Assembly (NCBI GenBank): GCA_002726205.1 | Contig: PBSL01000048.1 | Location: 1-64,000, forward strand | Source of the DNA: Planctomycetaceae bacterium | GTDB lineage: Bacteria > Planctomycetota > Planctomycetia > Planctomycetales > Planctomycetaceae | Reading direction: 5' to 3' | Length of the DNA stretch: 64,000 bases | Part shown: in pieces, positions 35,157 to 41,584 of the stretch | Layout: every line of letters starts with the position of its first letter | Numbering within the stretch: the stretch's first letter is position 1 | The notes under the pieces: model-generated | The model's database searches: none | What the model saw: the letters and a program-made list of their open reading frames with translations, nothing else | What the model was told of the DNA's origin: nothing | Made by a program: the position numbers and the translations under genes

Positions 35157-36083
35157 GTGAGTGATCTGTACATCGGCCTGGCCCTGATCGGACTGCTGTC
35201 CGTCGCCACTTTTGCCGTCTCGATGCGGCTGGCCAATGGACATCGCTGGGTTGGCAACGGACTGGCAATCGCCGGCGTGTTGTTGACGCTCTTTTATGTC
35301 CGCTTCGTCTGGGACGACATCCGACTGGCCCGGTTTCTGCCTGTCTCGAACCTGATCATCGTCGGCAACGCACTCCCCCTGGCTGCCGGTTTTCTTGCCG
35401 GTGTGCTCTGGAAACGGATCGACCACTGGCGGCGGATTTTCGGTGTCGCCGCGTTGGCCGTTGTCGGTGGCTATGCGGCCGTGTTTCCGCTACTGGGAAT
35501 CGCGCCCTCCTGCCGGAAGACCTGGACTAACAACGGGATCTGCCTGCAGACGACACCGGCGACGTGTACCCCCGCCTGCGCCGCCACCCTGCTGAAATTC
35601 CACGGAATCGATGTCACCGAGGCGGAAATGGCCGACCTGTGCCTGACCCGCGCACGAGGAACCAACTGGGCAGGACTCTATCACGCCCTGAAACGAAAAA
35701 CCGAGGGCACCTCGCTGGATGTCAAGGTCGTATTCGGCTCAGCGGCAAGACTCCTCGACCAATTGCCCGGCCCGGTAATTCTCTCGGTCGGACTCCCCCA
35801 TGACGCAGCGGCCGATTCCTACTACCGCACCAAGTGGATCTGGAATCCTGGAGAGGAGCATTCGATCCTGCTGCAGGGCTACAACGACAAGGGGATGCTC
35901 CAGATCATCGATCCCAACCCGCGGATCGTTTACGAGTTGTGGCGGCCTCGTGATCTCTCGGTTCTCTGGCGAGGGCAGGGGATGGCACTGGTGCCCCGTC
36001 GCAGCAAACCCAGCCTGTCGGGTTGGCTCCAGGGTTCTGTCCCTGACCAGACGGGCGATGACAGTGCGGCAGCCTTGCGATAG
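35157..36083 (+). CDS. membrane protein with C-terminal C39-like cysteine peptidase domain
   Basis: A 308-residue protein. The GTG at 35157 places the first helix at the N-terminus; an in-frame GTG at 35103 is an alternative. Four membrane helices fill about 1-130. The C-terminal domain (about 137-290) resembles the papain-like C39 fold, with the Gln/Cys part in CLQTTPATCTPACAATLL and the His/Asp part in GEEHSILLQGY followed by LQIIDPNP. True C39 peptidases trim double-glycine leaders during export, but no ABC transporter or leader peptide gene is adjacent, so the substrate is unknown. The next gene, a protease fusion, starts 40 bp downstream. Confidence 0.75.
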   Translation: MSDLYIGLALIGLLSVATFAVSMRLANGHRWVGNGLAIAGVLLTLFYVRFVWDDIRLARFLPVSNLIIVGNALPLAAGFLAGVLWKRIDHWRRIFGVAALAVVGGYAAVFPLLGIAPSCRKTWTNNGICLQTTPATCTPACAATLLKFHGIDVTEAEMADLCLTRARGTNWAGLYHALKRKTEGTSLDVKVVFGSAARLLDQLPGPVILSVGLPHDAAADSYYRTKWIWNPGEEHSILLQGYNDKGMLQIIDPNPRIVYELWRPRDLSVLWRGQGMALVPRRSKPSLSGWLQGSVPDQTGDDSAAALR

Positions 36084-36123
36084 GATTGTGCCGCTCTTGT
36101 GGAATCTGACCCGGAGACCGCCG

Positions 36124-38412
36124 ATGCGCCCCACCTGCCACTCGTTGTCGACACTGCTGGTGTGCAGCCTCGTGTTGCACTGTCTCTCGTCCCACGGCGG
36201 GGCTCTGCCGCCCGACAAGAAGCCTCCGGCCAAGCCCGACGCGACCAAGACAGCACTGTCCGTCGAGGACCTCACCGAACAGGCGATGAAATCGATCGCG
36301 GTCGTTCAGTTCTCCGGTCGTGACGGGCGACGCGTCGGCCTGGGCACCGGTTTCGTGATCGATCCCAATGGGCTGATTGCCACCAACCTGCACGTGATCG
36401 GCGAAGCACGCCCGATCACCGTGACCATGGCCGACGGCAAGAAGTACGACGTCGAGGCGATTCATGCGACCGAGAAGGCCATGGACCTGGCAATCCTGAA
36501 AATCGATGCCAAAGGATTGCCGTCGCTGCCGCTGGGCAACTCGGATCGGCTGCGGCCGGGGCAACAGATTCTCGCACTGGGAAACCCGCTCGGCTTGAAG
36601 TTGAGCGTGGTACGCGGTGTCGTCTCCGGCCAACGGGAAATCGAAGGCAAGCCGATGATCCAGTTGGCCGTTCCGATCGAAGAAGGCAACAGCGGCGGAC
36701 CGGCGATCGACCGGCAGGGGCGGGTGATCGGCATCCTGACGATGAAACATCGCTTCACTGACAACCTCGGATTTGCCGTCGCGATCAACGCGCTGAAACC
36801 GTTGATCGCCAAGCCCAACCCGATCCCGATCAACCGCTGGCTGACGATCGGCGCTCTGGACGACCGGGACTGGAAGACTCACCACGGCGGTCGTTGGCGT
36901 CAACGCGCCGGCCGAATCCACGTCGAGGGCTCCGGCTCTGGTTTTGGTGGCCGCGCCCTGTGCTTTTCTCAACACGATGCCCCCACACTTCCCTACGAAG
37001 TGCAGGTGCACGTCAAGCTCCACGACAACGATGGGGCGGCTGGCCTGGTCGTCTGTGGCGACGGGAGCGACCGTCACTATGGGTTCTACCCGACCAGTGG
37101 CCAGATGCGATTGACCCGCTTCGACGGCCCGACGGTTACCAGCTGGTCGATCCTGAAGACACTTCCCTCTACCGATTACCGGCCCGGGGAATGGAATACG
37201 CTGAAGGTCAGGGTCAGCAAGGACAAACTGTCGTGTTACCTCAATGACAAGCTGGTGATAGAAACCCAGGACACCGCCTATCGCACGGCCCGCGTCGGCC
37301 TGGCCAAGTTCCGCCATACCGAAGCCGAATTTCGCGGGTTTCGCGTCGCTGCAACCATCCCTCCTTTCGGGCCGACCCAGAAGCTGATCACGCTGATCAA
37401 CAAGCTGGTAACCGACATCTCGCCTCAGGGCGATTTCAGCGACACACTGCTGACAAAACTCACACCGACGGGCGGCCCCGGCACTCAGGTGCTGCGGAAC
37501 CGCGCCCGACTGCTCGAACAGCAGGCCAGCCAACTGCGAGAACTGGCCCGGGTCGTTCATCATCGCCGCGTGGTCGCCGAACTGCAGAAGACTCGCAAAC
37601 AACCCGACGCCAGGATCGACTTGTTGCATGCCGCCCTGCTGATCGCCTGGCTCGACAACGACGAACTCGATGTCGAAGCCTACCGTCGACAATTTGACAG
37701 AATGGCCGCCGACCTGGCGAACAAACTGGCCAAGCAGGCCACCACTGCTGAAAAGCTCTCGGCACTGCGAAAGCACTTCTTCAACGAACTCGGCTTTCAC
37801 GGCAGTCGCATAGACTACTACAACCGCTCCAACAGCTATCTCAACGAAGTACTCGACGACCGCGAGGGGCTGCCGATCTCGCTGTCACTGCTCTACATCG
37901 AGCTCGGCCGACGTATCGGCCTGAAGATCGAGGGCATCGGACTGCCCGGACATTTTGTTGTCCGTCCCGCCTCCACCAAGACCCCCGCGCTGCTGGTTGA
38001 CGTTTTCGACGGGGGCCGCACAATGCCTCGCGAGAAAGCCGAACGGCTGATCGTCGAGGCTCATCAACCACGCCCGACCGGAGACGCCCGCAAGCGGATC
38101 ATTGCCGAATTCCTGGCCCCCGAGACACGACGAGCGATCCTGGTCCGCATGGCCAGCAATCTCAGCAACATCGCACAGCGTCGATCCGACGAAAAGGCCA
38201 TCAGCCGCTACGCCGACGTGATCCTGGCCGTCGATCCGAACAACCTCAGACACCGCGGCATCCGGATTCAGATTGCCATGCGACGGGGGCATTTCGACAA
38301 GGCCCTGGCCGACATTGACTGGCTGCTCGAACATCCCGACGATCAGATCGACGCGCGGCAACTGCAACTTCTCAGGAAGGACGTTGCACAGAAAAAAGCC
38401 GCCCCCCGCTAG
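36124..38412 (+). CDS. secreted trypsin-like (S1C) protease fused to jelly-roll and SirB1-type transglutaminase-like domains
   Basis: A 762-residue protein with an N-terminal signal peptide (about 1-27). Residues 45-230 form an HtrA-like serine protease domain with a full triad: His90 (TNLHVIG), Asp121 (KAMDLAIL) and Ser180 (EGNSGGPA). No PDZ domain follows. Residues about 240-420 look like a DUF1080/LamG-type jelly roll (GEWNTLKVRVSKDKLSCYLN). Residues about 535-690 match the SirB1 transglutaminase-like fold (YYNRSNSYLNEVLDDREGLP and GIGLPGHFVVRP), where the catalytic Cys position does not appear to hold Cys. A TPR-like tail ends the protein. The combination is unusual. It probably processes or senses envelope proteins or glycans. 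Confidence 0.85.
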   Translation: MRPTCHSLSTLLVCSLVLHCLSSHGGALPPDKKPPAKPDATKTALSVEDLTEQAMKSIAVVQFSGRDGRRVGLGTGFVIDPNGLIATNLHVIGEARPITVTMADGKKYDVEAIHATEKAMDLAILKIDAKGLPSLPLGNSDRLRPGQQILALGNPLGLKLSVVRGVVSGQREIEGKPMIQLAVPIEEGNSGGPAIDRQGRVIGILTMKHRFTDNLGFAVAINALKPLIAKPNPIPINRWLTIGALDDRDWKTHHGGRWRQRAGRIHVEGSGSGFGGRALCFSQHDAPTLPYEVQVHVKLHDNDGAAGLVVCGDGSDRHYGFYPTSGQMRLTRFDGPTVTSWSILKTLPSTDYRPGEWNTLKVRVSKDKLSCYLNDKLVIETQDTAYRTARVGLAKFRHTEAEFRGFRVAATIPPFGPTQKLITLINKLVTDISPQGDFSDTLLTKLTPTGGPGTQVLRNRARLLEQQASQLRELARVVHHRRVVAELQKTRKQPDARIDLLHAALLIAWLDNDELDVEAYRRQFDRMAADLANKLAKQATTAEKLSALRKHFFNELGFHGSRIDYYNRSNSYLNEVLDDREGLPISLSLLYIELGRRIGLKIEGIGLPGHFVVRPASTKTPALLVDVFDGGRTMPREKAERLIVEAHQPRPTGDARKRIIAEFLAPETRRAILVRMASNLSNIAQRRSDEKAISRYADVILAVDPNNLRHRGIRIQIAMRRGHFDKALADIDWLLEHPDDQIDARQLQLLRKDVAQKKAAPR

Positions 38413-38414
38413 GG

Positions 38415-40412
38415 CTAACGGCTCAGGGCCATCCGCGTCACCCGCCCCAGGCGTCCTGCCCCCCCCTCGGGAGCCACGCTCCCGATAACGACCGGCAACC
38501 ACATCGGCCGATTCATCCGTTCCTCGGGCAAACGATCGATCATCGGCAGTTCACCGGGTGCCGTCTCGGGACGAAGATGTTCGACCGGTGCCGGTTGCAG
38601 GAACAGCTTTCGGGCCGAGACGAGTTTCACCAGGGTGGTGGCCAGTTCCGCGGGGATCCCGGACCACAACACCACGTTGGGGTCACTACGAAGGGCCAGG
38701 CCCTGCTCGCCACTGGTTTCCACAAATGGCCCGAAATCCCTGACCAGCTCGGCAAACGTCACTTCATCGCAGGATCGCACATACTCGACCAGTGCCGCCG
38801 GCACCTGCCCGTGCTCGGCCAATGCCAACCACTCCTGACCGGTCTCTTCCTCGGCATCCAGATCCGCGTCAAACTTCAGATCTTCTCCTTCCCCGTGCTC
38901 CTCCTCGAGCATCTGGATCACCCGGCTGTCGGGCGTCGCCGCTCGGCAGCGATCCCGCGCCCATTCACGCAGTTCGAAGATCTTCTCCTCCATCGTCACC
39001 GAGAGCGGGACCGTTTCGTCGCGCGCATACTCGAGATCCTTTTGTGTCAGCACCCGCCCCTGGTTGAAACACTCGACCATCGCAGTCACGACAATCTGCT
39101 CGATCTCTGCCCCGCTGTAGCCTTCGGTTTGTCGCGCCAGTTCCTGCAGGTCGTACTTCTCCGGTTTCCAGCCACGTTTCTTCAAATGGATATCGAAGAT
39201 CGGTTTTCGCTCGTGGAAATTCGGCAAGTTGACGAAGAACAACTCGTCGAACCGACCGCGGCGGAGCATCTCGGGGGGTAACCTGTGAATCGAGTTGGCC
39301 GTGGCCACCACGAAGACGTGGGACCTGTGCTCCTGCATCCAGGTCAGAAACCGGCCGAGCAACCGGGTCATGGTGGTTTCCTGGGCCGCCTCCCCTGACC
39401 CCGAAAACCCCTTGTCGATTTCATCGATCCAGAGAACAGCCGGAGCGATTGTTTCGATGAGGTTGAGCACGTAGCGCATATTCTGTTCGGACTGCCCCTG
39501 GTCGGCTGCCAGCAGGTTCGACACGTCCAGTCGTACCAAAGGAAAGCTCAGCAACCGCGCGATGGCCCGGGAAATCAACGACTTGCCACAGCCCTGCACG
39601 CCGAGAAGAAACACGCCCTTGGGAGTCGGGATCCCCTGCTCCTGGGCACGACTGCTGAACGCCTCGGCCCGCTGGCGAACCCAGTCCTTGAGACCGTCCA
39701 GACCACCCACATCGGCTAAGCCCTCGTCCAGATCGTGGAACTCGAGCAGCTCCGACCCCTGGACCAGATGCTTCTTCTCGGACACCAACTGCAGAAAGAC
39801 CTCGTCGTCGATCTCATCCCGCCCCAGCAGGGCACGCGCCAGTGCCTTGTGCCCCTCGCGGGCAGTCAGTCCCAGCACGGCCTTCAACAGCCGTTCCTCG
39901 GCCGCCGCCTCGATCGCCAAGTCTGCCTGGCCGGCCCTCCGCCGCTCGGCCAGTACGATCTCCAATCGCTCCCGCATTTCCTCCAGACCGGGTAACGGCA
40001 GATCCATCTTGACCGCCTCGGTCTGCAACTCGATAGGAACCTCGCACACCGGACCCAGGAACAGCAGCGTCTTGTTTTCCGCGGTCAGCACCGGAACGAG
40101 GTCGCGCAGTCGTCGCACGACGGCGGGATCGTCGAGGTACGGATGAAAGTCCTTCAGGAGAAACAGGTGGTCCGGCGGATAGGACACCACGTCGGCAAGG
40201 AACGTCCCGATGTCAGAGACATCCGGGTCGTCACCGATCGGAGGTTGCGGACCGGTCGTCGCCGACCAGGCCACCAGCCCCCGCTCGATCTCCAGTGACA
40301 TTTCCGAGAGTTCACTCTCCCAGCGTTCCTCTTCCCATGTCCTCAGGAAAAGCATCGTGTACCGCGACAACACCCGCGATCTCAGGACTTCGAGTGCTTC
40401 GGCCGTGCTCAT
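38415..40412 (-). CDS. AAA+ ATPase, Ycf46-like
   Basis: A 665-residue protein. The N-terminal region (about 1-215) resembles the degenerate AAA-like domain of Ycf46 proteins (YPPDHLFLLKDFHPYLDDP). The AAA+ module has Walker A GVQGCGKS (271-278), Walker B VLWIDEID (326-333) and the second region of homology RRGRFDELFFV, so it should hydrolyse ATP. The C-terminal about 150 residues are acidic and unassigned. No membrane helix or protease motif is present, so this is not FtsH. The ATG overlaps the stop of the pentapeptide/TIR-like gene (ATGA), implying coupled translation and a shared task. Confidence 0.88.
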   Translation of the reverse strand: MSTAEALEVLRSRVLSRYTMLFLRTWEEERWESELSEMSLEIERGLVAWSATTGPQPPIGDDPDVSDIGTFLADVVSYPPDHLFLLKDFHPYLDDPAVVRRLRDLVPVLTAENKTLLFLGPVCEVPIELQTEAVKMDLPLPGLEEMRERLEIVLAERRRAGQADLAIEAAAEERLLKAVLGLTAREGHKALARALLGRDEIDDEVFLQLVSEKKHLVQGSELLEFHDLDEGLADVGGLDGLKDWVRQRAEAFSSRAQEQGIPTPKGVFLLGVQGCGKSLISRAIARLLSFPLVRLDVSNLLAADQGQSEQNMRYVLNLIETIAPAVLWIDEIDKGFSGSGEAAQETTMTRLLGRFLTWMQEHRSHVFVVATANSIHRLPPEMLRRGRFDELFFVNLPNFHERKPIFDIHLKKRGWKPEKYDLQELARQTEGYSGAEIEQIVVTAMVECFNQGRVLTQKDLEYARDETVPLSVTMEEKIFELREWARDRCRAATPDSRVIQMLEEEHGEGEDLKFDADLDAEEETGQEWLALAEHGQVPAALVEYVRSCDEVTFAELVRDFGPFVETSGEQGLALRSDPNVVLWSGIPAELATTLVKLVSARKLFLQPAPVEHLRPETAPGELPMIDRLPEERMNRPMWLPVVIGSVAPEGGAGRLGRVTRMALSR

Positions 40413-41584
40413 GATGTGTTTCCGGTTCGTCGAGCCGCTCGTCCCCCGGACTCCTGCTGCAGGCGTTCGATCAATTTCTTCAGTTCGGAGTGGAACTTCG
40501 TCTTGTTTCGTCGCCAGCCGGTAAAATCGGCCAGCAGGCGGCCGGCCACTTCGGGTGCCGCGTCATGTTTCCAGCCACCGCCCAAAAGGAAACCGTCAAG
40601 ATTCAACGGCCACATCAGCAGGACCGAATCCCCGGTTTGCTGCTTGATGGCTTCCTCACGACGATACACCGATTCGATCAGAGGCCCCATCCAGTCGGCC
40701 GACAACGTTGCCCGCGTGGCACACACGAGCACCCTGTCCCAGACGCGAATTCCTCGCGCCGGAACAAGCCCGGTCACTCCCGCATCATCGGCATCGCGGC
40801 GGGAGTCCAGCCAACAGCGGACGCCGTGCTTCTGCAACGTGTTGTGCAATTTTGACGCGAACGGCTCGTCTTCCTCGCCGTGAACGATGAAATAGACATC
40901 CGAGGCCGCCACCGGTTCGTCGACCGCCAGATAGTTTTCAATCCATTCCTGACTGACCCCGTTGCCTTGCAGAAACGCCTGCGGGATCCGGGCCCCGCTT
41001 CGTTCGAGTGTATCGAGACCAATCGAACCCGGCCCGAGATGCGTCAGACTCTCGAGTCCGATCGTGCGTGACAGATCCACGTTGTTCCAGGTCAACCAGC
41101 CACAGCGAACCCGATCGAGAGTGGTCCGATCGAGATCGGCGTGCGAGAAATCCACTTCGACCAACGCCGCTCCGGAGAGATCACTCTCACGCAGGTCCGC
41201 GTCGACCAGGCTCGACGCACTGAGGACGGCATCGGTGAGGTCGGCTCCCTGGAGATTGCAGCGCGAGAGATCGACGTTGGTACCGCGGACCTCTCGCAGC
41301 GTCGCACGAAACAGGCTGGCCCCGGCGAGGTTCGCCCGGCTGAGTTTCGCTCCGGTCAGATTGGCACGAGTGAGATCGGCTTCGAAGAGGTTGGCCTCGT
41401 TCAGACGTGCGCCGCTGAGATCCGCGCCGACGAGCTGACTGTGGCGAAAATTCACCCCGGCCAGATCCGCACCGCTCAGGTCGACGTCAACCAGGTCCAG
41501 TACGGCATCCGGGTTGTCACGACGCCAGCGGGCCACAGCCCGCCGCCCCTCCCGGACAATCTCGACCAGTTCTTCGCGTGCCAT
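40409..41584 (-). CDS. pentapeptide-repeat protein with C-terminal TIR-like domain
   Basis: A 391-residue cytoplasmic protein. The ATG at 41584 is preferred over a GTG at 41599. Residues about 31-155 are A(D/N)LxxA-type pentapeptide repeats (ADLTRANLTGAKLSRANLAG), expected to form a right-handed quadrilateral helix. After a linker with FLQGNGVSQEWIENYL, a TIR-like domain spans about 229-360 (DVYFIVHGEEDE, HGVRCWLDSR, WPLNLDGFLL, DFTGW). In the TIR family I recall, Glu follows the alpha-C Trp as WxxxE-I; here the segment is W298-MGPLI, so the catalytic Glu looks replaced by Leu302. A signalling or binding role is therefore more likely than NADase activity. It is first in the operon with the AAA ATPase. 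Confidence 0.87.
   Translation of the reverse strand: MAREELVEIVREGRRAVARWRRDNPDAVLDLVDVDLSGADLAGVNFRHSQLVGADLSGARLNEANLFEADLTRANLTGAKLSRANLAGASLFRATLREVRGTNVDLSRCNLQGADLTDAVLSASSLVDADLRESDLSGAALVEVDFSHADLDRTTLDRVRCGWLTWNNVDLSRTIGLESLTHLGPGSIGLDTLERSGARIPQAFLQGNGVSQEWIENYLAVDEPVAASDVYFIVHGEEDEPFASKLHNTLQKHGVRCWLDSRRDADDAGVTGLVPARGIRVWDRVLVCATRATLSADWMGPLIESVYRREEAIKQQTGDSVLLMWPLNLDGFLLGGGWKHDAAPEVAGRLLADFTGWRRNKTKFHSELKKLIERLQQESGGRAARRTGNTS

Follow-up and report, generated by a model that had tools for sequence, protein, structure and literature searches.

The gene pair and its products

The window, by which we mean the whole stretch of 64,000 nucleotides analysed here, belongs to contig 49 of 76 in a planctomycete assembly of 4.86 Mb. 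As listed in Table 1, it carries on its minus strand a gene for a pentapeptide-repeat/TIR protein (P0001), whose stop overlaps the start of a gene for a long-form AAA+ ATPase of the Ycf46 family (P0002). An earlier note, made from the letters of this DNA alone, had described two such genes sharing an ATGA at this place, and both ORFs, their coordinates and their Pfam domains agree with that description. It had also stated that nothing else shares the unit. We found the genes on both flanks of the pair on the plus strand, and the pair is therefore a two-gene unit. One close copy of each gene is present in the genome. A promoter scan of the locus found none, and the hairpin behind the ATPase gene is rated weak because three such sites were counted against 2.4 expected in shuffled sequence. 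Convergent with the ATPase gene, at 35800-38412 of the window, lies a gene, also kept there in the sister genus g309, whose product joins a trypsin-like peptidase with two further domains, one sugar-hydrolase-like and one transglutaminase-like.

Table 1. Features of the pentapeptide-TIR/ATPase locus (window coordinates)
Feature	Position	Strand	Basis
Pentapeptide-repeat/TIR protein (P0001), 391 aa	40409..41584	-	ATG start, TGA stop; ORF, Pfam, AlphaFold2 model, full-length orthologs
Pentapeptide-repeat right-handed beta-helix, residues 30-163	41096..41497	-	PF00805 1.4e-31; VIA Z 22-27
Conserved linker after solenoid, residues 164-225, mostly helical	40910..41095	-	Invariant alignment columns; model helices 190-220
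TIR domain, residues 228-377	40454..40903	-	TIR_2 4.4e-8; VIA Z 13.5; family profile to AbTIR 4.9e-9
W298 of WxxxE, kept	40691-40693	-	Family alignment
Leu302 codon (CTG) at WxxxE catalytic-type Glu position	40679..40681	-	Family alignment; column aligned with AbTIR
ATGA overlap, TIR-gene stop/ATPase start	40409..40412	-	Gene coordinates; same in L039, L040, L041
Long-form Ycf46-family AAA+ ATPase (P0002), 665 aa	38415..40412	-	ORF, Pfam, AlphaFold2 model
Degenerate first AAA domain, residues 1-212, conserved TWEEERW motif, no P-loop	39777..40412	-	p97 alignment Z 27.6; motif inspection
Active-looking AAA domain, residues 225-470	39003..39740	-	PF00004 2.3e-25; Z 26.5 to p97 D2; kept motifs
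Walker A GVQGCGKS of second AAA domain	39579-39602	-	Motif
C-terminal extension, residues 496-665	38418..38927	-	Only in long form of lineage; absent in short forms checked
Terminator-like hairpin and T-run directly 3' of ATPase stop (weak)	38401..38415	-	3 sites vs 2.4 expected in shuffles

The AlphaFold2 model of P0001 has a mean pLDDT of 86, with high confidence over most of the protein, and full-length orthologs were found in the genera g309, g274 and g298 as well as among solitary relatives. Its solenoid, which Pfam recognised as pentapeptide repeats, matched those of HetL, MfpA and Qnr, among others, in a VIA structure comparison, and four residues of the linker (H182, S196, F204 and G209) are invariant in the alignment of the pentapeptide-TIR family. 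The C-terminal domain is a TIR domain both by Pfam, where TIR_2 exceeded the cut-off, and by fold, the best structural match being the SPARTA TIR (Z 13.5, rmsd 2.4 over 128 aa). Searched against solved structures, the single sequence of this domain gave only weak phmmer matches, and a profile of the family TIR reached AbTIR (4.9e-9) and other TIR NADases. The model shows poor order in the loop that follows the second TIR strand.

For P0002, Pfam reported AAA_lid_3 in addition to the AAA domain, and the AlphaFold2 model (mean pLDDT 90) matched p97/Cdc48 across both of its AAA domains with residues 2-489. The tandem layout is thus that of this unfoldase, and the second domain carries all ATPase motifs: beside Walker A, a Walker B (VLWIDEID), a sensor (ATAN) and an arginine motif (LRRGRFD). 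Every paired member and almost every other one retains these motifs, two X in L041 being ambiguous bases. P0002 differs from p97/Cdc48 in that no Walker A is present in residues 1-212, no p97 N domain precedes them, and an additional C-terminal part of about 170 aa, to which Pfam returned no match, follows. The matches listed in the structure comparison of P0002 fell on its AAA domains.

The Ycf46-like character that the earlier note had given the ATPase is borne out, and P0002 placed in the Ycf46 family, by a match of 39.5% identity (E 1e-103) over most of the length of a 509-aa Geminocystis AAA protein, presumably Ycf46 itself, which is encoded near DUF1257 and DUF2997. The two share the two-domain layout; the window protein differs from its cyanobacterial relative in the C-terminal extension and in its pentapeptide-TIR partner gene. 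The genome of the window contains no DUF1257, whereas short-form ATPases of other bacteria (loci L031, L073 and L074) lie near DUF1257 as in cyanobacteria, which makes the long form a branch that has diverged. Loci L073 and L074 each hold two short-form Ycf46-like ATPases a few kb apart.

Distribution and genomic context

In order to place the pair, 170 genomes of the family were surveyed. The long-form ATPase was present in about 96 of them (rows counted by hand), and pentapeptide-TIR relatives with an E-value of 1e-20 or better were found in 49. The two genes are adjacent in six genomes belonging to four genera: the window genome (g1), three genomes of g309 (L039/L197, L040/L198 and L041/L199), G420 of the distant genus g274 (L187) and G461 of the equally distant g298 (L188, on the contig of L065). 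The adjacency, which the earlier note had suggested following across genomes, is hence not the property of one genus. By gene coordinates, the four nearest genomes, from g1 and g309, retain the ATGA overlap at a protein identity of 65-81% between the two genera. The flanking genes of the window (trypsin/transglutaminase, C39 peptidase and DUF1549/DUF1553) recur at the g309 loci, so the entire region is conserved there. In g274 and g298 the pair retains its order and strand with gaps of 89 nt and 51 nt, respectively, and the flanks differ from those of the window; the pair itself is therefore the conserved element. With at least three genomic contexts, and with order, strand and close spacing recurring in g309, g274 and g298, the arrangement is beyond chance. 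The trees of the two genes agree in dividing the paired members between two clades, a grouping that would fit either a single origin followed by loss or two separate joinings. From these comparisons of gene order and sequence, the pair is a real, lineage-restricted two-gene operon. On the opposite strand 3' of the pair in G461 (L188:5181-5840), we noticed two small genes of 97 and 117 aa, judged by eye to be of the DUF433/DUF5615 toxin-antitoxin-like type.

Most pentapeptide-TIR genes of the family lie away from the ATPase, and since the two genes are unlinked in most genomes having both, their partnership is not general. Solitary copies of either gene have varied metabolic or cell-maintenance neighbours, including PdxA, an inositol monophosphatase-like protein, RbsD/FucU, a redoxin and a protein kinase, and no neighbour of the long ATPase at its other loci is conserved generally across the family. 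The earlier note had named uniform pairing of the ATPase with unrelated housekeeping genes as an outcome that would speak against a module, and its homologues, like those of the pentapeptide-TIR protein, come close to that picture in mostly standing alone next to unrelated genes (e.g. pdxA, RbsD/FucU, redoxin and inositol phosphatase). Outside the family, pentapeptide-TIR relatives are rare (six genomes in the phylum sample), and wherever both genes were listed in these six, they were on different contigs. Within the family the genes co-occur more often than expected (28/34 versus 68/136, Fisher p 8e-4, by hand count), a statistic to which we give no weight because kinship confounds it. In the genus g295, a solitary pentapeptide-TIR gene that keeps the Glu discussed below overlaps pdxA, a gene of vitamin B6 synthesis, by 4 nt (L165:7956-10210, L202:3434-5733); this TIR family has thus also been coupled to a quite different gene.

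A TIR domain without its catalytic-type glutamate

Most bacterial TIR NADases need the Glu of the WxxxE motif in order to be active (PMC11374754). The family profile aligned this motif with the AbTIR helix DWTNYE, and the Glu is kept in 33 of the 37 pentapeptide-TIR family members. It is absent from the window TIR, where Leu302 takes its place, and from the three g309 orthologs. The region reads WMGPL in the window and WMDPL, WMDPL and WMSSL in g309, so that all four ATGA-coupled proteins have exchanged Glu for Leu. The paired proteins of L187 and L188 retain the Glu. Its loss is accordingly placed on the branch leading to g1 and g309, and pairing does not entail loss of catalysis, given that two distant paired genera keep the residue. 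The window lineage has preserved W298, D260 and the helix that bears an acidic residue at W+6; this acidic residue, two positions past Leu302 (E, E, E and D in the four proteins), could in principle stand in for the lost Glu.

Substitution rates were obtained by a simple counting method for L039 versus L040, the only pair unsaturated at silent sites. For the TIR part, dN was 0.023 and dS 0.635, with dN below that of the pentapeptide part (dN 0.083, dS 0.737); the ATPase gave a dN of 0.038 and a dS of 0.527. Rates of this kind indicate that the TIR domain lacking Glu is not decaying and is under strong purifying selection.

The defence question

Bacterial TIR domains are usually taken as NAD-cutting immune effectors. 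A location of the pair in a defence island was considered and rejected: PADLOC, run on the 43 proteins of the window, returned nothing beyond generic matches to AAA (IetA) and to protease (RT-Protease_XI), and neither PADLOC nor Pfam recognised a defence gene around the pair within the window. By Pfam, the genes of the window are metabolic or typical of planctomycetes, for example MutS, ferrochelatase, homoserine dehydrogenase and a sulfatase. P0001 gave no TIR-specific PADLOC match of note. The match of P0002 to IetA (6.9e-21) covers the AAA part only; in IetAS the ATPase is joined by a subtilisin-like protease, whereas the window operon has a pentapeptide-TIR partner, and PADLOC found no IetS-like protein among the 43. 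The weak RT-Protease match may stem from the peptidase part of the gene at 35800-38412.

The TIR domain resembles those of AbTIR, SPARTA TIR-APAZ and Cat1 in fold (Z 12-13.5) and in the retained W of WxxxE, but it differs from them in the Leu at the catalytic-type position, the poorly ordered loop of the model and the fusion to a pentapeptide solenoid. Planctomycete pentapeptide-TIR proteins encoded by solitary genes (e.g. L163-L186) have the same full-length architecture at 30-41% identity, but they keep the Glu and do not lie beside the ATPase. Collectively, NADase-based anti-phage defence by the window pair is not supported here. The earlier note had regarded the pair as the window's best candidate for an undescribed two-gene signalling or defence module; the unit is indeed conserved, and the literature that we searched yielded no description of such a pentapeptide-TIR/AAA ATPase pair, but the part of the proposal concerning defence and NAD found no support, in view of the Glu-to-Leu exchange and the housekeeping neighbours.

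Interpretation

In appearance the pair is closer to an adaptor with its motor than to a phage-triggered, NAD-cutting defence. Our preferred reading, to which we assign a probability of roughly 0.45, is an operon whose two products are made by coupled translation: a pentapeptide-TIR protein that acts as scaffold or adaptor, its TIR domain being catalytically dead, and a remodeling ATPase of the p97-like AAA+ type. The ATPase would form a hexamer driven by its second AAA domain. The pentapeptide-TIR protein may bind it through the TIR domain or the linker and would present or recruit a client or a site, the TIR domain serving for protein-protein contact instead of NAD cleavage. That the two proteins are partners at all is suggested by gene order. 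The ATPase occurs widely in the family without the TIR gene and therefore probably has its main role in cellular maintenance, with the TIR protein as a lineage-specific accessory.

The main rival, which has an appreciable though lesser chance of being correct, holds that a rearrangement brought together two unrelated, solitary genes, which now share a transcript but no functional partnership. The solitary state of both genes in most genomes, amid varied housekeeping neighbours, and the presence of the pair in only six of the 170 family genomes are in line with it, and the 4-nt overlap with pdxA in L165 and L202 means that tight packing with unrelated genes does occur. However, mere co-transcription would have to accommodate an order and strand that recur in two lineages whose flanks differ, an ATGA overlap that survived 20-35% protein divergence, and the position of the paired members in the same two clades of both trees, which allows one old origin.

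Two further readings retain a link to immunity. TIR domains lacking NADase activity serve assembly in animal receptors, and by this analogy a dead TIR domain might assemble or bind a signal during infection or stress, to be disassembled or reset by the AAA+ motor. Such a sensor would suit a dead TIR kept under selection next to an intact AAA motor; with no link to defence genes in the window and no recognised ligand for the pentapeptide protein, we consider it improbable. Very unlikely, in our judgement, is an active anti-phage module in which infection makes the TIR domain cleave NAD or produce a cyclic ADP-ribose signal and the ATPase acts as sensor, effector or regulator. Closeness of the TIR fold to that of SPARTA, retention of W298, D260 and the acidic W+6 helix, the Glu that the paired g274 and g298 proteins still have, and the weak IetA-like match all point towards it. 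They are set against the Leu in the window lineage itself, the housekeeping surroundings, a PADLOC scan without a TIR-specific match of note, and an ATPase that is common in a large part of the family, where a defence gene would be patchy.

We would tentatively go further, to a proposal we think more likely to be wrong than right: that a TIR pseudoenzyme, carried on a pentapeptide solenoid within one protein, became the dedicated adaptor of a bacterial p97-like AAA+ motor, the switch from NAD cutter to client-recruiting partner having taken place within one family. Relatives with and without the catalytic Glu, both paired and unpaired, occur in this family and offer a natural series for a TIR domain becoming a pure binding module. 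The case also urges caution, as adjacency alone is insufficient to call pairs of TIR proteins and ATPases defence systems. Finally, the same series may help in asking on what the poorly understood Ycf46-type AAA proteins act. A search around short forms of this ATPase with the family TIR profile gave a single TIR-domain ORF, at a distance of about 6 kb on an Aminicenantes contig (L096, 15845-17260).
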